In this document: positions 2,876-20,833 of the stretch, in pieces
How the letters are laid out: each line of letters starts with the position of its first letter
Position numbering within the stretch: position 1 is the first letter of the stretch
Source of the DNA: Nitrososphaeraceae archaeon
GTDB lineage: Archaea; Thermoproteota; Nitrososphaeria; Nitrososphaerales; Nitrososphaeraceae
Assembly: GCA_021325295.1 (NCBI GenBank)
Contig: JAJPHM010000054.1
Coordinates: 1 to 38,863 of the forward strand
Reading direction: 5' to 3'
DNA: 38,863 nucleotides
Program-made: the position numbers and the translations under genes
The notes under the pieces: model-generated
The model's input: only the letters and a program-made list of their open reading frames with translations
What the model was told of the DNA's origin: nothing
The model's database searches: none

Positions 2876-4502
2876 GGAGCTCTCCTTCTATTCCCAGTTC
2901 ATTTGCATAGGGAATCAATATATGTTTACGTGCCTTCATCCAGTCGGCCCTTATGCCCAGTCTGCTTGCATGCTCCAAAAGCCTTCTTTCGAGGGCAACT
3001 GTCGCCTTGTGCCTCAGCTGGATGATAGCACCGTGTATATCGACGTTGCCATAAACTGCATTACCTGCTACAAGGATTCTGGCACCTGCATCATACACCT
3101 GCTGAAGGGTGCTTGCATCGATCCCGCCGTCAGCTTCAATATAGCCCATAAAGCCATGGTCACGGAGCTTTTTGTTTATCGAGACCATCTTGGGCAGCAC
3201 TTCAGGAATGAATTTTTGCCCCGCAAAGCCGGGGTTGACCGACATCACTATCATGACATCAAGGTCACGCAGATGCTCGTAGAGCCAATCGGGGACATCA
3301 GTTGAAGGGTTGATTGCAATGCCGGGACTTATGCCAGCTGCCAAGAGCTTGTCTTTTATCTGTGCAAACTCGTCCGGCGTGCAGGCCTCGGCATGAACTG
3401 TAATTATGTCGCACCGCGCGTCAATATAGTCCTGTATGTGCTCAAGTGGATTTTCTATCATCAGGTGAGCGTCAAAGGGGAGGCTTGTCCTGGGCCTCAA
3501 TTTCTTGATCGTGTCTGCAAAGAAGGTAATGTTTGGCACAAACCTGCCGTCCATTACGTCAAGGTGTATCATGTCGACTCCCTCTCTTTCTACTTTTTTT
3601 ATCTTGTCTTCATAGTTTTCCCGCTCGCCTGCGATAATTGAGGGTGCAATGAAGTACTCGCTTTCCAGCTCCTCTAGCAGGACCGGGGTATGTTTTTTTG
3701 TCGGCGCCTTGCCGTGCCATTGCGGATTGTTTGCCATGTGCCTGATGCCGTTGCCTTTGATTGTATTTGCTACAATAAGTGTAGGCTTGTCATGAGCCTG
3801 CCTGGCTTTGTTTAACGCATCAACAAACTGCTCTACCTTGTGGCCGTCGATTTCTATTACGTTCCAGTTAAAGGCCGCCCACTTTTCCTTGGTAGGATCC
3901 AGAGGCATTATATCTTCAGTAAAGCCGTCCTGCTGGATGCGGTTGCGATCCAATACTGCGACAAGGTTATCCAGCTTGAACTTGCCAGCCGCCATAGAAG
4001 CTTCCCAGATCTGGCCTTCATTTGATTCGCCATCACCTATCAGGACATATACGCGATTCTTTTTGCCGTCAAGCCTGCTGGCCAAGGCTATGCCGACCCC
4101 GACGGAAAGGCCGATGCCCTCAGACCCACCAGAATATTCAACGCCCGGGACGCTGTGGTCTCGCTGCCTTTCTGAGTACCTGACAGGATGGCCCTGTAAT
4201 CTAGAGCCCAGCTTTCTCAGTGTCTTGATCTCTTCTGCTGGAAAATAGCCTGAAACAGCCAAAGTAGCATAATATCCTGGCGCCGAGTGAGCCTTTGAAT
4301 TAATGAAATAATCGCGCTCTTGCCAGTCAGGCTTTGAAGGACTGTGGTTCATCTTTCGGAAATATAGTGTCCCCATGATCTCTGCGGCAGAAAAGGAAGC
4401 TCCAGGATGGCCAGAGCCGGCTTCAGCTATCCCTTGGATAGCTAGCATTCGCACATTGCGTATCTTCCTTTTAAGATCCAAGTAACGCATGTTAAACCCC
4501 AT
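2862..4502 (-). CDS. Fused transketolase N-terminal subunit / ribulose-phosphate 3-epimerase
   Basis: The 546-residue protein has two complete enzymes in one frame. Residues about 1-275 are the transketolase PP domain: GSGHPG at 29-34, RLQGHP, VEYSGGSEGIGLSVGVG, the TPP/Mg motif GDGESNEGQIWEA (156-168) and NQWHGKAP-like WHGKAP (262-267). Residues about 284-495 are a ribulose-5-phosphate 3-epimerase TIM barrel: APSI with S288, HLDVMDG (313-319), AHLM with H346, MSVNPGF (420-426) and EADGGID with D458, so the metal and acid-base residues are all present. An extra helical, Arg/Lys-rich tail (about 496-546) follows. There is no stop or ATG-like seam between domains, only about 10 linker residues. 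ATG 4502 is used here; ATG 4490 (M5) is possible. It is the first gene of the tkt-tal operon, with 384 bp of divergent intergenic DNA shared with pepA. Split archaeal transketolases are well known; fusion to Rpe is unusual in my knowledge. Confidence 0.93.
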   Translation of the reverse strand: MGFNMRYLDLKRKIRNVRMLAIQGIAEAGSGHPGASFSAAEIMGTLYFRKMNHSPSKPDWQERDYFINSKAHSAPGYYATLAVSGYFPAEEIKTLRKLGSRLQGHPVRYSERQRDHSVPGVEYSGGSEGIGLSVGVGIALASRLDGKKNRVYVLIGDGESNEGQIWEASMAAGKFKLDNLVAVLDRNRIQQDGFTEDIMPLDPTKEKWAAFNWNVIEIDGHKVEQFVDALNKARQAHDKPTLIVANTIKGNGIRHMANNPQWHGKAPTKKHTPVLLEELESEYFIAPSIIAGERENYEDKIKKVEREGVDMIHLDVMDGRFVPNITFFADTIKKLRPRTSLPFDAHLMIENPLEHIQDYIDARCDIITVHAEACTPDEFAQIKDKLLAAGISPGIAINPSTDVPDWLYEHLRDLDVMIVMSVNPGFAGQKFIPEVLPKMVSINKKLRDHGFMGYIEADGGIDASTLQQVYDAGARILVAGNAVYGNVDIHGAIIQLRHKATVALERRLLEHASRLGIRADWMKARKHILIPYANELGIEGELHAAK

Positions 4503-16235: not shown

Positions 16236-18896
16236 GTGACTAATTACCGCTGCCCAAAATGCGGCTCGATGCATTCAGTCGAAGCAGACAGAATATTCGA
16301 CGGCAGGCTGATATTTCGGTGTTCAAAGTGCAGAGTATGCGGGATAGTCAGGCCGCATTCTGCTCTATCGTCATCTGCCCAGAGTAGTCTTGACGATGCT
16401 TACCTTGATTTTCTCGACCAGTATGACAACGGCCAGGCTGCAGACGAAAAAGACTTTAGCTTACTGGCAGAGCAGGAAAAAATTATCCGGCCGGCAAGCG
16501 AGATAAACTTGCTTCTCTCTAAAAATGGAGCATCAGATAACGAGCTTCTGAGTTCTGTCCTCAAGTCCCGGCAGGACTATGTAGTTGACTATCAGGTCAT
16601 AGACGAGCCGGCGCCGGAGCAGGGAAGCAATGTTGCTGAACTTGCTTTAGACGATGCGCTCAAGCAATCCATGCTGGACAAAGGGATCGAGAGACTCCAT
16701 GCATTTCAGGAGCAAGCTATATCCACAGTACTCTCCGGCGCAGATACGGCAATTGTAGCGCCAACAGCGTCAGGCAAGACAGAGGCATTTTGCATACCTA
16801 TTTTGCAAAAGATATCAGAAAGGATCCCGCGGTTTGGCTCGCTCAGGCCGATTGAAGGAAAGGGCAGAAACAAGCGTGCAGTGTCGGCGATATTTGTATA
16901 CCCGACTAAGGCGCTGGCAAGGGACCAGGCGCCAAAGATAAAAGAGCTTGCTGCATCGACAGGCATAAGAGTCGACGTGCTTGACGGCGACACAGAACAG
17001 GCAGAGCGTGACCAGATCGCTTCCCGACCGCCTGACATACTGATCACAAACTTTGACGTGCTGCACTACCACATGATGCACAGGACAAAGTTTTCCCGGA
17101 TGCTGATGGACACGCGGTTTCTGGTAGTGGATGAAGCACACAGCTATACTGGCGTATTTGGCGCAAACGTTCACTATATTGTGAGAAGACTCGAGCGGCT
17201 TGTCTCTGCCGCTTCAGGCCACGGCCTCCAGATTATTGCAGCCTCTGCTACTCTCCCTAATGCAGGCGAGTTCTGCCAGGCACTCTTTGGGAGAAAAATG
17301 CAGGCAGTCTATGGCAGGGGTAGAAAAGGCAGGGTAAACTTTGCCATACTGTTCCCGTCTTTGCGATCGTACAGGTCGCTCATGATAGACCTTGTAAAAA
17401 AGACCGCCAAGACAGGTCACAAAACAATCGCATTTAGTGGGTCTCACCTCGGGTCGGAGCTTCTGGCATTTTACGCCTCAAGACAGGGAATCAAGATTAA
17501 AGTCCACAGGGCAGGCCTGCTGCCTGCAGCCCGCGCTGAAGTAGAGCGGGCGTTCAAGGCAGGCGAGCTGATGGCAGTATCTGCAACGCCTACACTTGAG
17601 CTTGGAATTGACATCGGAGATGTCGACGCTGTGGTATCAAACATAGTGCCAATTAACAGGCTTGTGCAGAGGTTTGGCAGGGCCGCCAGGCGCGGGCAGG
17701 AAGGCTATGCCTTTCTTGTTCTGGGAAACGATCCAATAAGCCAGTACTACAAGATGCACCCACAGGACTATCTGGCCGATTCAGAATATGCCTATACTGA
17801 CCCGTCAAACCCGTTTGTCGAAGAATACCAGATCCTTGCAATGGCCTGCGACAGGCCCATAACAATGCCCGAGTCCGCAGTAATCTGGAGCGCTGTGCAG
17901 AGACTTGTGTCAAAGGGTCTGTTGCGGGTGACCGGGAACCGATTTCTTGCCACCAGAGAGGCTGTTAATCTGCTCAATGACTACAGTATACGCGGGATTG
18001 GAAGCCGGGTTGACATTACGCTTGGTGGCAAAATAGTAGGGGAAAGATCCCTTCCACAGGCACTTGAAGAGCTCCACCCCGGGGCTGTGTATTTTCTTTC
18101 TGGCCGCCGGTACCAGGTTGCTGCACTTCACTACGGGCAGGTCGGCGGGGGGAGCAGCAGGCCAGAAAAAAAGCCAGCTCGCCTCAGGGAAGGCCATCCT
18201 TACGCCGAACTTGTGGCACTTCCGCCTGATTACCCTTACTATACAAAGGCGATAACAGACGAGTGGCCTTCTATACTCGAGATATACGAGAAAAAGCGCG
18301 CCATCGGTCACGGTGCGGAGATGGCCTATTGCTCGCTTTTGATCCGCAAGCGGGTTCTGGGTTACGCCAACATGGAGATAGGACAGGACGCCCTGCAGGG
18401 GAGAAAGGTGATGCTAGACAGGCCTCTTGAGCACGAGTTTCCAACAAAAGGCTTTGTCTTCAGGGCGCCCCGGCCACTTGACTCGCTGGAATCAGCCGAA
18501 GATCCGGAGTATGTTGAGGCCAGCAGCTACCATGCGTCAGAGCATGTGCTTATCGAGGGAAGCGCAATGATAACCGGCGGAGCATCGCAGGATCTTGGCG
18601 GGATATCACTATCTTCTGGCCTGATATTTGTCTACGATGGAAGCACCGGAGGAAACGGCGCAAGCAAGGTGCTCTATGACAGGGTTGACAGGTCTTTTGA
18701 GAGGGCGTTGAGGATACTGTCTGAATGCCAGTGCAAAAGTGAAAGTGGATGCCCGCGCTGTACGTATTCTTACAGGTGCGGAAACAACAATGAATATCTC
18801 CACAAAGCCTCGGCAATCGAGGTGCTGAATAGAATAGTTGAAGGCGAGCAGACAGAAATTGGAGATATTGTAAGCGGCGACAGAGCCTTGGTGTAA
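16236..18896 (+). CDS. DEAH superfamily 2 helicase with C-terminal Cys cluster (MrfA/Hrq1-like)
   Basis: 886 residues. An N-terminal zinc ribbon is visible (CPKC at 6-9, CSKC at 29-32, C35). After a linker rich in acidic residues come helicase motifs: HAFQEQAI Q-motif (154-161), Walker A PTASGKTEAF (176-185), YPTKALARDQ, TNFDVLHYHM, DEAH (299-302), ASATLPN, TPTLELGIDIGDVDAV and QRFGRAARRGQEG. The C-terminal DUF1998-type region ends with CQCKSESGCPRCTYSYRCG (831-849), the four-Cys iron- or zinc-binding set of MrfA and relatives. Such enzymes are 3'-5' DNA helicases linked to repair of crosslinks and bulky damage. Start is GTG 16236; CAATTTATTT at 16203-16212 is at -26, so it is leaderless. The N-terminal ribbon is an extra not found in all homologues. 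Confidence 0.9.
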   Translation: MTNYRCPKCGSMHSVEADRIFDGRLIFRCSKCRVCGIVRPHSALSSSAQSSLDDAYLDFLDQYDNGQAADEKDFSLLAEQEKIIRPASEINLLLSKNGASDNELLSSVLKSRQDYVVDYQVIDEPAPEQGSNVAELALDDALKQSMLDKGIERLHAFQEQAISTVLSGADTAIVAPTASGKTEAFCIPILQKISERIPRFGSLRPIEGKGRNKRAVSAIFVYPTKALARDQAPKIKELAASTGIRVDVLDGDTEQAERDQIASRPPDILITNFDVLHYHMMHRTKFSRMLMDTRFLVVDEAHSYTGVFGANVHYIVRRLERLVSAASGHGLQIIAASATLPNAGEFCQALFGRKMQAVYGRGRKGRVNFAILFPSLRSYRSLMIDLVKKTAKTGHKTIAFSGSHLGSELLAFYASRQGIKIKVHRAGLLPAARAEVERAFKAGELMAVSATPTLELGIDIGDVDAVVSNIVPINRLVQRFGRAARRGQEGYAFLVLGNDPISQYYKMHPQDYLADSEYAYTDPSNPFVEEYQILAMACDRPITMPESAVIWSAVQRLVSKGLLRVTGNRFLATREAVNLLNDYSIRGIGSRVDITLGGKIVGERSLPQALEELHPGAVYFLSGRRYQVAALHYGQVGGGSSRPEKKPARLREGHPYAELVALPPDYPYYTKAITDEWPSILEIYEKKRAIGHGAEMAYCSLLIRKRVLGYANMEIGQDALQGRKVMLDRPLEHEFPTKGFVFRAPRPLDSLESAEDPEYVEASSYHASEHVLIEGSAMITGGASQDLGGISLSSGLIFVYDGSTGGNGASKVLYDRVDRSFERALRILSECQCKSESGCPRCTYSYRCGNNNEYLHKASAIEVLNRIVEGEQTEIGDIVSGDRALV

Positions 18897-18967
18897 TTGT
18901 GAGCTGCCGTCTGTCTAGAATTAAAGCTCAAAATAGAAACATGTTATTTTGTTATCAGGTTTGCTAT

Positions 18968-19045
18968 CCTGTCGTAGGTTGTTGCATGTTAGTATCATAG
19001 TGATGGTGTGTCCCCGGGGTGATCACAGGAAGTTGCCTGTCGTAG
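18968..19045. repeat. 10-bp direct repeat CCTGTCGTAG
   Basis: Identical copies at 18968-18977 and 19036-19045, 68 bp apart, in the promoter region of the nickel/cobalt permease gene. They could be two half-sites for one regulator. Confidence 0.5.
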
Positions 19046-19080
19046 AATGAGTTGGATAAACTATCCAACCCTTTAAATAC
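19012..19080 (+). promoter_or_regulatory. Promoter of NiCoT permease with stacked palindromes
   Basis: In order: CCCCGGGG (19012-19019), GTGATCAC (19019-19026), ACAGG-N6-CCTGT (19025-19040), the perfect 8-bp inverted repeat GTTGGATA-AAC-TATCCAAC (19051-19069), and a TATA box CTTTAAATAC (19071-19080). The start codon TTG is at 19109, so the start site is near 19102. The 19-bp palindrome abuts the BRE/TATA region, where binding would block TFB/TBP. A metal-responsive repressor is a reasonable guess given the downstream gene; no known consensus is claimed. Confidence 0.55.
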
Positions 19081-19108
19081 CAAGTAATCAGCAGCACTTG
19101 AGTCCAGC

Positions 19109-19903
19109 TTGACAGAGGAAATATCTGCGATAATAGCAGTATCTGCCCCGACGATGCTTATCCTTGGCCTCCGTCATGGTCTGGATGTTGACCATATATC
19201 GGCCATAGACAGCCTCGTTCGGCTGCACAATGCTTCAAAGCAGGCAAGACTTGTGGGCACCGGATTTAGCTCCGGTCACATGGTATCTGTCCTGGCTGAA
19301 ATGATTTTTGTGATATATGCAGTAGGTGGCTTTTTGAAAAGTGACAGTTTCGGATTGTTCAGCGGCCTTCTTGGCGCCGGGGCGCTTGGCGTAGTTGGAA
19401 TAATTAACCTGTATTCAATGAAAAAATGGGGCAAGACCGGATCGGCTATACTGGCAGGTAAGGTGCTAAATAGAACTGGCAAGCTGGGGCCTTACTTTTC
19501 TGCATTCATTACAGGAATAGTATTTGGTCTGGGATTCGATACTGCCACGCAGATATCTGCAATTTCAGTTTCTGCCGTAGCGTCTGCAACCGAAGGAATT
19601 AAAATTGCTCTGACGCTGGTCGGGGTTTTTGGCATTGGAATGGTTGCAATGGACACCATGAACAGTATTTTGCTGCGCTCGGCCTTGTGGAGAATATTCC
19701 AGACAAAGGCTTTTCGGTATATGGCATATGCTTTGAGTGCTGTAGCCATTAGCCTAGCTATTGTGGACAGTATAGGGACATTGACAAATGGAACCGTGAA
19801 AATTCCTGAATGGTCAGGCCCCACATTGGCAATAATTGTGGTCTTCTCTTCTTTTTCATATGCATTTGTAACAAAGAGAAGGATACAATCTAGGAATAAG
19901 TAA
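19109..19903 (+). CDS. Nickel/cobalt permease, NiCoT (HoxN/NixA) family
   Basis: 264 residues with about seven to eight hydrophobic segments. The family signature H-x4-D-H is present near the N-terminus (H23 GLDV D28 H29 I), and LGFDTATQ in the middle matches the second conserved motif (GFDTATE in relatives). These secondary permeases import Ni2+ or Co2+ with high affinity. In this organism group, nickel would serve urease and cobalt would serve cobamides; which metal is used is not decidable here. Start is TTG 19109, fitting the TATA box at 19071-19080 with a very short leader. The elaborate upstream palindromes suggest regulated expression. Confidence 0.92.
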   Translation: MTEEISAIIAVSAPTMLILGLRHGLDVDHISAIDSLVRLHNASKQARLVGTGFSSGHMVSVLAEMIFVIYAVGGFLKSDSFGLFSGLLGAGALGVVGIINLYSMKKWGKTGSAILAGKVLNRTGKLGPYFSAFITGIVFGLGFDTATQISAISVSAVASATEGIKIALTLVGVFGIGMVAMDTMNSILLRSALWRIFQTKAFRYMAYALSAVAISLAIVDSIGTLTNGTVKIPEWSGPTLAIIVVFSSFSYAFVTKRRIQSRNK

Positions 19904-20242: not shown

Positions 20243-20833
20243 CTATTGACTCATCACAATCTGCCTTCGACTGATAATAGATTCTATCCTTTCAAGATTG
20301 AATTTTGGGAATTGCCTGCCATAGAATTGGAAACACTTGACTAATGGAAAGGAGAAGTTCTTGCAGTAAAGGGAATGGTCAAATCCTCCTTCAAGTTTCC
20401 GCTTGTACCAATTTCTGGTTTCTCGCTCTAATAATAACCTAGCTATATTTTTTGAACGCTTAAGGTGTAAAAATATTATCTTCTCCCTTGCAGTCGAAAT
20501 AAGTTTTTCAATTGAAAGACATATTCTCCACATCAAATCATCCCTGACTTTAGATAATCCTTGCAATTGTTCCACGGTAGATTTGGAATCGCTTCTAATT
20601 GCTACGACTATATTTTTTTTCTTAACTCGTCTGATTGATTTCCTTAAGTATGCAAGATTATCCGCGACCGCAAAGTATATTGCGAGCAATTCCATTCTCT
20701 GAACACCAAACCTTTCGTTTTTCTCTGATGGCCTTAACATTCTGATCCTATGGAATTCGGTATAATGGTTGTACCATGCCACATAACCCGCAGGAGATGC
20801 GTCAGCGTCTATCGCAATGCTGTGCAGCCGCAA
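20243..20833 (-). CDS. RNase H-fold protein with altered last catalytic position
   Basis: 196 residues. The first half follows RNase HI: IDADASPAGYVAW (8-20; D9/D11), MELLAIYFAVADNL (47-60; E48), VVAIRSDSKSTVEQL (76-90; D82) and LKRSKNIARLLLE (124-137). The last motif normally reads N-x2-A-D-x-L, but here the Asp is Arg (R132), so the fourth metal ligand is missing or shifted. A C-terminal extension of 60 residues (about 137-196), basic and aromatic, is not part of the RNase HI core. Start is TTG 20833, which keeps the first beta-strand intact and has CTTATACC (20857-20864) at -26; an in-frame stop lies just upstream. Could be a nuclease, a reverse-transcriptase-like RNase H relic or a nucleic-acid binder. 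Confidence 0.7.
   Translation of the reverse strand: MRLHSIAIDADASPAGYVAWYNHYTEFHRIRMLRPSEKNERFGVQRMELLAIYFAVADNLAYLRKSIRRVKKKNIVVAIRSDSKSTVEQLQGLSKVRDDLMWRICLSIEKLISTAREKIIFLHLKRSKNIARLLLERETRNWYKRKLEGGFDHSLYCKNFSFPLVKCFQFYGRQFPKFNLERIESIISRRQIVMSQ

Follow-up and report, generated by a model that had tools for sequence, protein, structure and literature searches.

The perfect 19-bp palindrome that precedes the permease gene of this window (the whole stretch of 38,863 nucleotides that was analyzed) is real and functional-looking, and represents an operator-like DNA switch that, as judged from sequence comparisons, is conserved before cobalt-uptake and vitamin B12 genes in soil and marine ammonia-oxidizing archaea as well as in other archaea. 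The palindrome is quite probably the operator of a repressor of cobalt and cobamide genes composed of a winged helix and a DUF4443 domain, with DNA binding, repression and effector all being predictions.

The palindrome, its promoter and its surroundings

The preliminary description of this DNA reported a perfect palindrome ending 2 nt before a TATA box, a nickel/cobalt-type permease gene downstream, and three further palindromes and a 10-bp direct repeat nearby. All of these are present, at the following positions:

19051-19069, + strand: operator GTTGGATA-AAC-TATCCAAC (GTTGGATAAACTATCCAAC), conserved before CbtB and NicO genes
19072-19079, + strand: TATA box TTTAAATA, starting 2 nt past the operator end
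19109-19903, + strand: NicO/NiCoT-family permease (PF03824), 264 aa from a proposed TTG start, assigned to the cobalt type from its context
18938-18945, no strand assigned: 8-bp palindrome AACATGTT, judged background
19012-19019 and 19019-19026, no strand assigned: 8-bp palindromes CCCCGGGG and GTGATCAC, judged background
18968-18977 and 19036-19045, + strand: copies 1 and 2 of the direct repeat CCTGTCGTAG, judged background

The permease scores 57.4 bits against PF03824 (cut-off 27.7) and does not reach the NCBIfam cut-off of either TIGR00802 or NF052500. Elsewhere in the window are a second perfect 8-3-8 palindrome, AGCTATCC-CTT-GGATAGCT (4425-4443), and a 196-aa ORF on the minus strand (20243-20833) that has no Pfam or NCBIfam match and looks RNase H-fold-like by eye.

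Perfect palindromes with 8-nt arms and spacers of 0-8 nt number 10 in the window as against a mean of 7.2 (range 1-16) in 30 shuffles, and by this comparison the main palindrome, taken alone, is not improbable. That one 8-3-8 palindrome per 39 kb is not rare would suit an origin by chance without function, but this reading is refuted, and its probability made practically negligible, by the conservation of the operator, at one constant place in the promoter, between paralogues and between genera and families. The additional repeats, whose density had been described as unlike that of other promoters in the window, fared differently. Window tiles with two 8-bp palindromes within 110 bp amount to 5.7%, as against 3.2% for shuffles, and the corresponding figures for a 10-bp repeat within 145 bp are 3.3% and 1.5%; in a three-way alignment the palindrome and the TATA box alone are kept before the NicO paralogue, with none of the extra palindromes and no direct repeat conserved there. 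The tail for the palindromes at 19012-19026 is thus 3-6%, and the stacked palindromes and direct repeat were rejected as a regulatory signal because they are not conserved before the paralogue.

Comparison of 95 sites gave GTTGGAT-AAACY-ATCCAAY as the family form of the operator. Since position 12 varies between C (62%) and T (36%) across these sites, the conserved form consists of 7-nt arms around an asymmetric AAAC core; the 8-3-8 symmetry originally described is present in the window, but it is not the form that is conserved. The AAAC core is near-invariant among the 95 sites and reads toward the NicO gene in the window. A TATA-like box is present at 95 of 107 distinct sites (a set in which L083, an archaeal match without TATA box, was kept), and in 69 of the 95 sites with such a box its spacing from the operator is exactly 2 nt. 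The archaeal BRE is located directly upstream of the TATA box, so an operator placed 2 nt before TATA covers its position. The earlier proposal, that a nickel/cobalt-type permease gene has an operator in its core promoter, is supported.

Recurrence before cobalt and cobamide genes

The palindrome is found at 11 places in the source genome when up to 3 mismatches are allowed. Three of the places have 2 mismatches and include C29:25886-25904, situated 47 bp before a NicO gene that is 82% identical to that of the window, and the family pattern at up to 2 mismatches occurs at just two places, both before NicO. The preliminary description had looked to further genomic copies and to conservation upstream of homologues as signs of a genuine operator, and both were found, the former as the second, 2-mismatch copy before the NicO paralogue and the latter as recurrence before NicO and CbtB genes of the family.

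Within the family, 61 of 70 Nitrososphaeraceae genomes contain the pattern at up to 2 mismatches, a stringency at which some occurrences are due to chance. We compared 150 listed sites with the gene matches from these 70 genomes, counting a gene when a site with up to 2 mismatches lay no more than 250 bp upstream. A site precedes at least 48 of 75 CbtB, at least 33 of 72 DUF4443, at least 7 of 33 NicO and at least 3 of 25 CsoR-type matches; CbtB occurs in 57 of the 70 genomes, and at least 44 of these 57 have a site before it. Among the sites listed, 39 of the 59 with no more than 1 mismatch precede NicO, CbtB, DUF4443 or CsoR, and the chance of a random position preceding a NicO, CbtB or DUF4443 gene is about 0.0003. 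The other 20 precede none of the four, 9 of them in a single assembly (G034). This assembly (6% contaminated) holds 13 pattern matches, many clustered on short contigs (C10, C180, C231, C323; L062, L089).

Again among the sites listed, 27 of the 75 CbtB and 26 of the 33 NicO genes have no site at up to 2 mismatches; DUF4443 is encoded within 3 kb of 14 of these 27 CbtB genes, and one NicO gene adjoining DUF4443 (G067) is also without a site. CbtB has no match in the source genome, and 5 of the 7 NicO genes with a listed site are in genomes without CbtB. Because most NicO genes with a site belong to such genomes, the operator seems to follow function and not gene family. All 7 NicO and 47 of 48 CbtB genes with a listed site have the AAAC core oriented toward them.

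Beyond the family, the pattern at up to 1 mismatch was found in 49 of 398 genomes of the phylum as compared to 2 for the reversed control, and the degenerate pattern without mismatch in 34 of the 398 as compared to none for its control. Exact matches occurred on 55 contigs of the GTDB genome set, 39 archaeal and 16 bacterial. A TATA-like box follows the site on 33 of the 39 archaeal contigs and on none of the 16 bacterial ones, and the bacterial matches were therefore dismissed as chance.

In Bathyarchaeota and other members of the phylum the site heads genes for a BtuF-like binding protein, CbiB with CobT, a cobaltochelatase-like protein and CobZ, as well as a divergent pair of HemA and cobyrinate a,c-diamide synthase; of these assignments, CbiB and the cobyrinate amidase (NF004921) are over the cut-off, and CobT, cobaltochelatase, CobZ and the BtuF-like protein are below the NCBIfam cut-off. 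Small membrane proteins encoded after the site in the same lineages have no HMM match but were interpreted as ECF S-components. In several lineages, then, genes for cobalt transport or for cobamides stand behind the site, as expected of a cobalamin/cobalt regulon. Two further gene types were seen behind perfect sites with TATA boxes. One is a frame in L065 (G011:C1:513505) that by eye resembles one for a nickel/peptide-type solute-binding protein and has an in-frame stop, and is perhaps a decayed regulon member; the other, in L053, L091 and L119, encodes a conserved 152-aa protein with no Pfam match and is divergent from a second site approximately 216 bp away.

Candidate regulators

Clustering of the genes next to the site on 38 archaeal contigs (those of the 55 exact-match contigs that remained once the 16 bacterial contigs and L083, which has no TATA box, were left out) identified a protein of approximately 213 aa with a winged helix and a DUF4443 domain as the most recurrent neighbor, on 17 of the 38. 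DUF4443 was found in 60 of the 70 family genomes, including the source genome, where the gene (G000:C69:40514; PF14544, E 4.4e-31) is beside neither site (C32, C29) and is not itself preceded by one. In the family genomes 50 of 75 CbtB and 6 of 33 NicO matches have a DUF4443 gene no more than 3 kb away, and among 29 scored loci of the degenerate pattern (30 were taken, L281 was not scored, and several are near-copies) 17 have one within 1.5 kb. In 32 of 34 cases a site that precedes a DUF4443 gene is held in common with CbtB or NicO, the genes usually being divergent. The adjacency of DUF4443 and site, in both divergent and tandem arrangements, extends through Nitrososphaeraceae, Nitrosopumilaceae and Bathyarchaeota; marine Nitrosopumilaceae keep the DUF4443-CbtBA pair with a site that has drifted to ATTGGA(T/C)AAAT(T/C)ATCCAAG and an unchanged TATA spacing. 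Co-occurrence, by comparison, is weak evidence, as DUF4443 is present in 309 of the 398 phylum genomes and presence alone thus says little (4 of the 49 site-bearing genomes have no DUF4443 match); presence or absence was rejected as evidence for this reason. A C-terminal HxxH tail of many thaumarchaeal DUF4443 proteins, promising as a cobalt sensor in Nitrososphaeraceae, did not hold up in marine proteins still paired with CbtB; it is absent from marine and Bathyarchaeal proteins and hence is not a general cobalt sensor.

The AlphaFold model of the source-genome protein (pLDDT 91.6, pTM 0.88) has as its best structural match PH0730 from Pyrococcus horikoshii (PDB 2p8t), with Z 20.5 across 176 residues (phmmer E 2.2e-11, Foldseek E 7.8e-11). 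PH0730 (PF22167 + PF14544) shares the two-domain layout of the DUF4443 protein and is the only solved relative; the PDB gives it no name beyond hypothetical protein, and we know of no target for it. A table of a transcription-factor survey has PH0730 as a family name (PMC6316755). The C-terminal, DUF4443 half of the model is similar to an insertion domain found in bacterial AspRS (Z about 11.6; L182:1501-2148, alignment A1), and the VIA-align rows other than 2p8t, CggR and AspRS were common winged-helix (MarR-type) matches that were left unused.

We propose that this one-component regulator (winged helix-turn-helix plus PF14544) would bind the palindrome beside the TATA box and, when bound, block TBP/TFB, such that cobalt-uptake genes are repressed. 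Its predicted targets would be NicO in the window, CbtBA in most relatives and genes of cobamide uptake or synthesis in other archaea; cobalt or a corrinoid would serve as co-repressor, and shortage of cobalt or cobamide would release the protein. Repression was chosen because the site lies 2 nt before TATA in Thaumarchaeota and close to the start codon in Bathyarchaeota (L075, L082), where TATA-like stretches precede it by eye, and either location would impede the transcription complex as it assembles or escapes. The constant direction of the AAAC core, which faces the transporter, leaves some scope for activation, and a near-invariant asymmetric core is odd for a simple dimer.

Two known metal regulators were weighed as owners of the site. 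NikR is present in the source genome (C24) and the NicO family can carry nickel, so far in keeping with a NikR operator before a nickel permease, but such an assignment is highly improbable. Among 13 NicO loci without a site that were read, six are beside NikR, and UreE/UreF are found in L015 and, by eye, in L018 (the six NikR proteins and the L015 urease proteins were confirmed by Pfam); none of these NicO genes has a site within 250 bp, and neither does the third NicO gene of the source genome, 3 kb from urease alpha. NicO of the window is near neither NikR (C24) nor urease (C73), and the operator arms are 5 nt apart, unlike the long-spaced half-sites of NikR. The absence of the site from NikR- and urease-linked NicO genes suggests that it marks cobalt-type and not nickel-type uptake, with the promoters separating the two types of NicO permease, and from this context the metal of the window permease is presumed to be cobalt. 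Nickel as the signal finds no support in these paralogues or in the CbtB and cobamide genes that carry the site; the original suggestion of a regulator other than NikR is upheld, as a site not tied to NikR needs a different regulator. A tree of 35 NicO proteins requires at least 3 changes of site label, as compared to 9.5 for shuffled labels, and one of the gains seems to fall within the clade linked to NikR; the view that the site has one history on NicO genes was rejected because at least 3 gains or losses are needed, and the tree is consistent with recruitment of the operator more than once. CbiX is divergent from a NicO gene with a site in L084/G071. Ownership by a CsoR/RcnR-type metal repressor (PF02583) is also very unlikely. 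Genes of this type follow the site on Nitrosotalea-like and other contigs, and at least 3 of the 25 family matches have one, but PF02583 occurs in only 10 of the 70 family genomes and has no match in the source genome, and the site precedes CbtB in at least 44 of the 57 CbtB-bearing genomes. CsoR/RcnR was accordingly rejected as common regulator, and its gene is more likely to be one more target of the operator. In six Nitrosotalea-like loci (L076, L087, L090, L114, L116, L125) the site lies between a CsoR/RcnR-type gene and that of a small NicO-like membrane protein, which in L076 has no Pfam match; these loci are possibly a cobalt efflux branch under the operator.

It is unlikely that some other, unlinked protein is the regulator and DUF4443 merely a frequent neighbor or co-regulated gene. 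The distance of the DUF4443 gene from both sites in the source genome and the frequency of DUF4443 in genomes without the site would fit such a protein, but the repeated adjacency across three lineages and the sharing of the intergenic site in 32 of 34 cases argue for DUF4443 itself, and no other DNA-binding family recurred as often in the neighbor clusters of the 38 contigs. An activator site directly upstream of BRE/TATA is unlikely as well: the fixed 2-nt spacing and the core orientation at NicO (7/7) and CbtB (47/48) would suit help given to TFB/TBP, but blocking is the easier reading of the Bathyarchaeal sites near the start codon. The DUF4443 repressor can be extended to a wider proposal that we consider evenly balanced, namely that DUF4443 proteins are phylum-wide archaeal sensor-repressors of cobalt and cobamide, the counterpart of the bacterial B12 riboswitch, whose AspRS-insertion-like domain would sense corrinoid or cobalt and whose one operator, common to Bathyarchaeota and to ammonia oxidizers of soil and sea, would in the latter have been carried from CbtBA to the unrelated NicO.

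Comparison with known systems

Ammonia-oxidizing archaea are major makers of cobamides in the sea and in soil. We found no description of the matching of cobalt uptake to need in these organisms in the literature searched, nor any paper on DUF4443 or the archaeal CBL-box, or on such a regulon; PMC7785015 contains no occurrence of cobal, CbtA, nickel or B12. An archaeal family with no assigned role, DUF4443, thus gains a candidate operator and gene set.

An archaeal CBL-box, a DNA signal for a hypothetical B12 regulator, is said to have been proposed by Rodionov et al. in J Biol Chem in 2003, reportedly before thaumarchaeal genomes were available and with the regulator left unnamed. It may be the same signal as the operator described here. 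Should its consensus agree with the family form, the operator would be a known one, and the novelty would lie in the link to DUF4443, the CbtBA and NicO targets and the thaumarchaeal range.

Repressors of the NikR, CsoR/RcnR and DtxR types likewise control metal uptake or efflux, and the DNA-binding domain of the DUF4443 protein is similar to the winged helices of DtxR/MntR and CggR. The protein nevertheless has no Pfam match over cut-off to the NikR, CsoR/RcnR or DtxR types (CggR_N is marginal, in the DNA-binding part), and its second domain, DUF4443, sets it apart from all three.

Bacterial cobalamin riboswitch regulons control cobalt transporters such as CbtAB, BtuFCD and Cbi/Cob genes, and the functions controlled are the same as here. 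The cobalamin riboswitch is an RNA leader, whereas the operator is a DNA site upstream of TATA and thus outside the mRNA; Rfam gave no match, cobalamin riboswitch included, in 18500-19500 of the window, and an RNA element was rejected on both counts.
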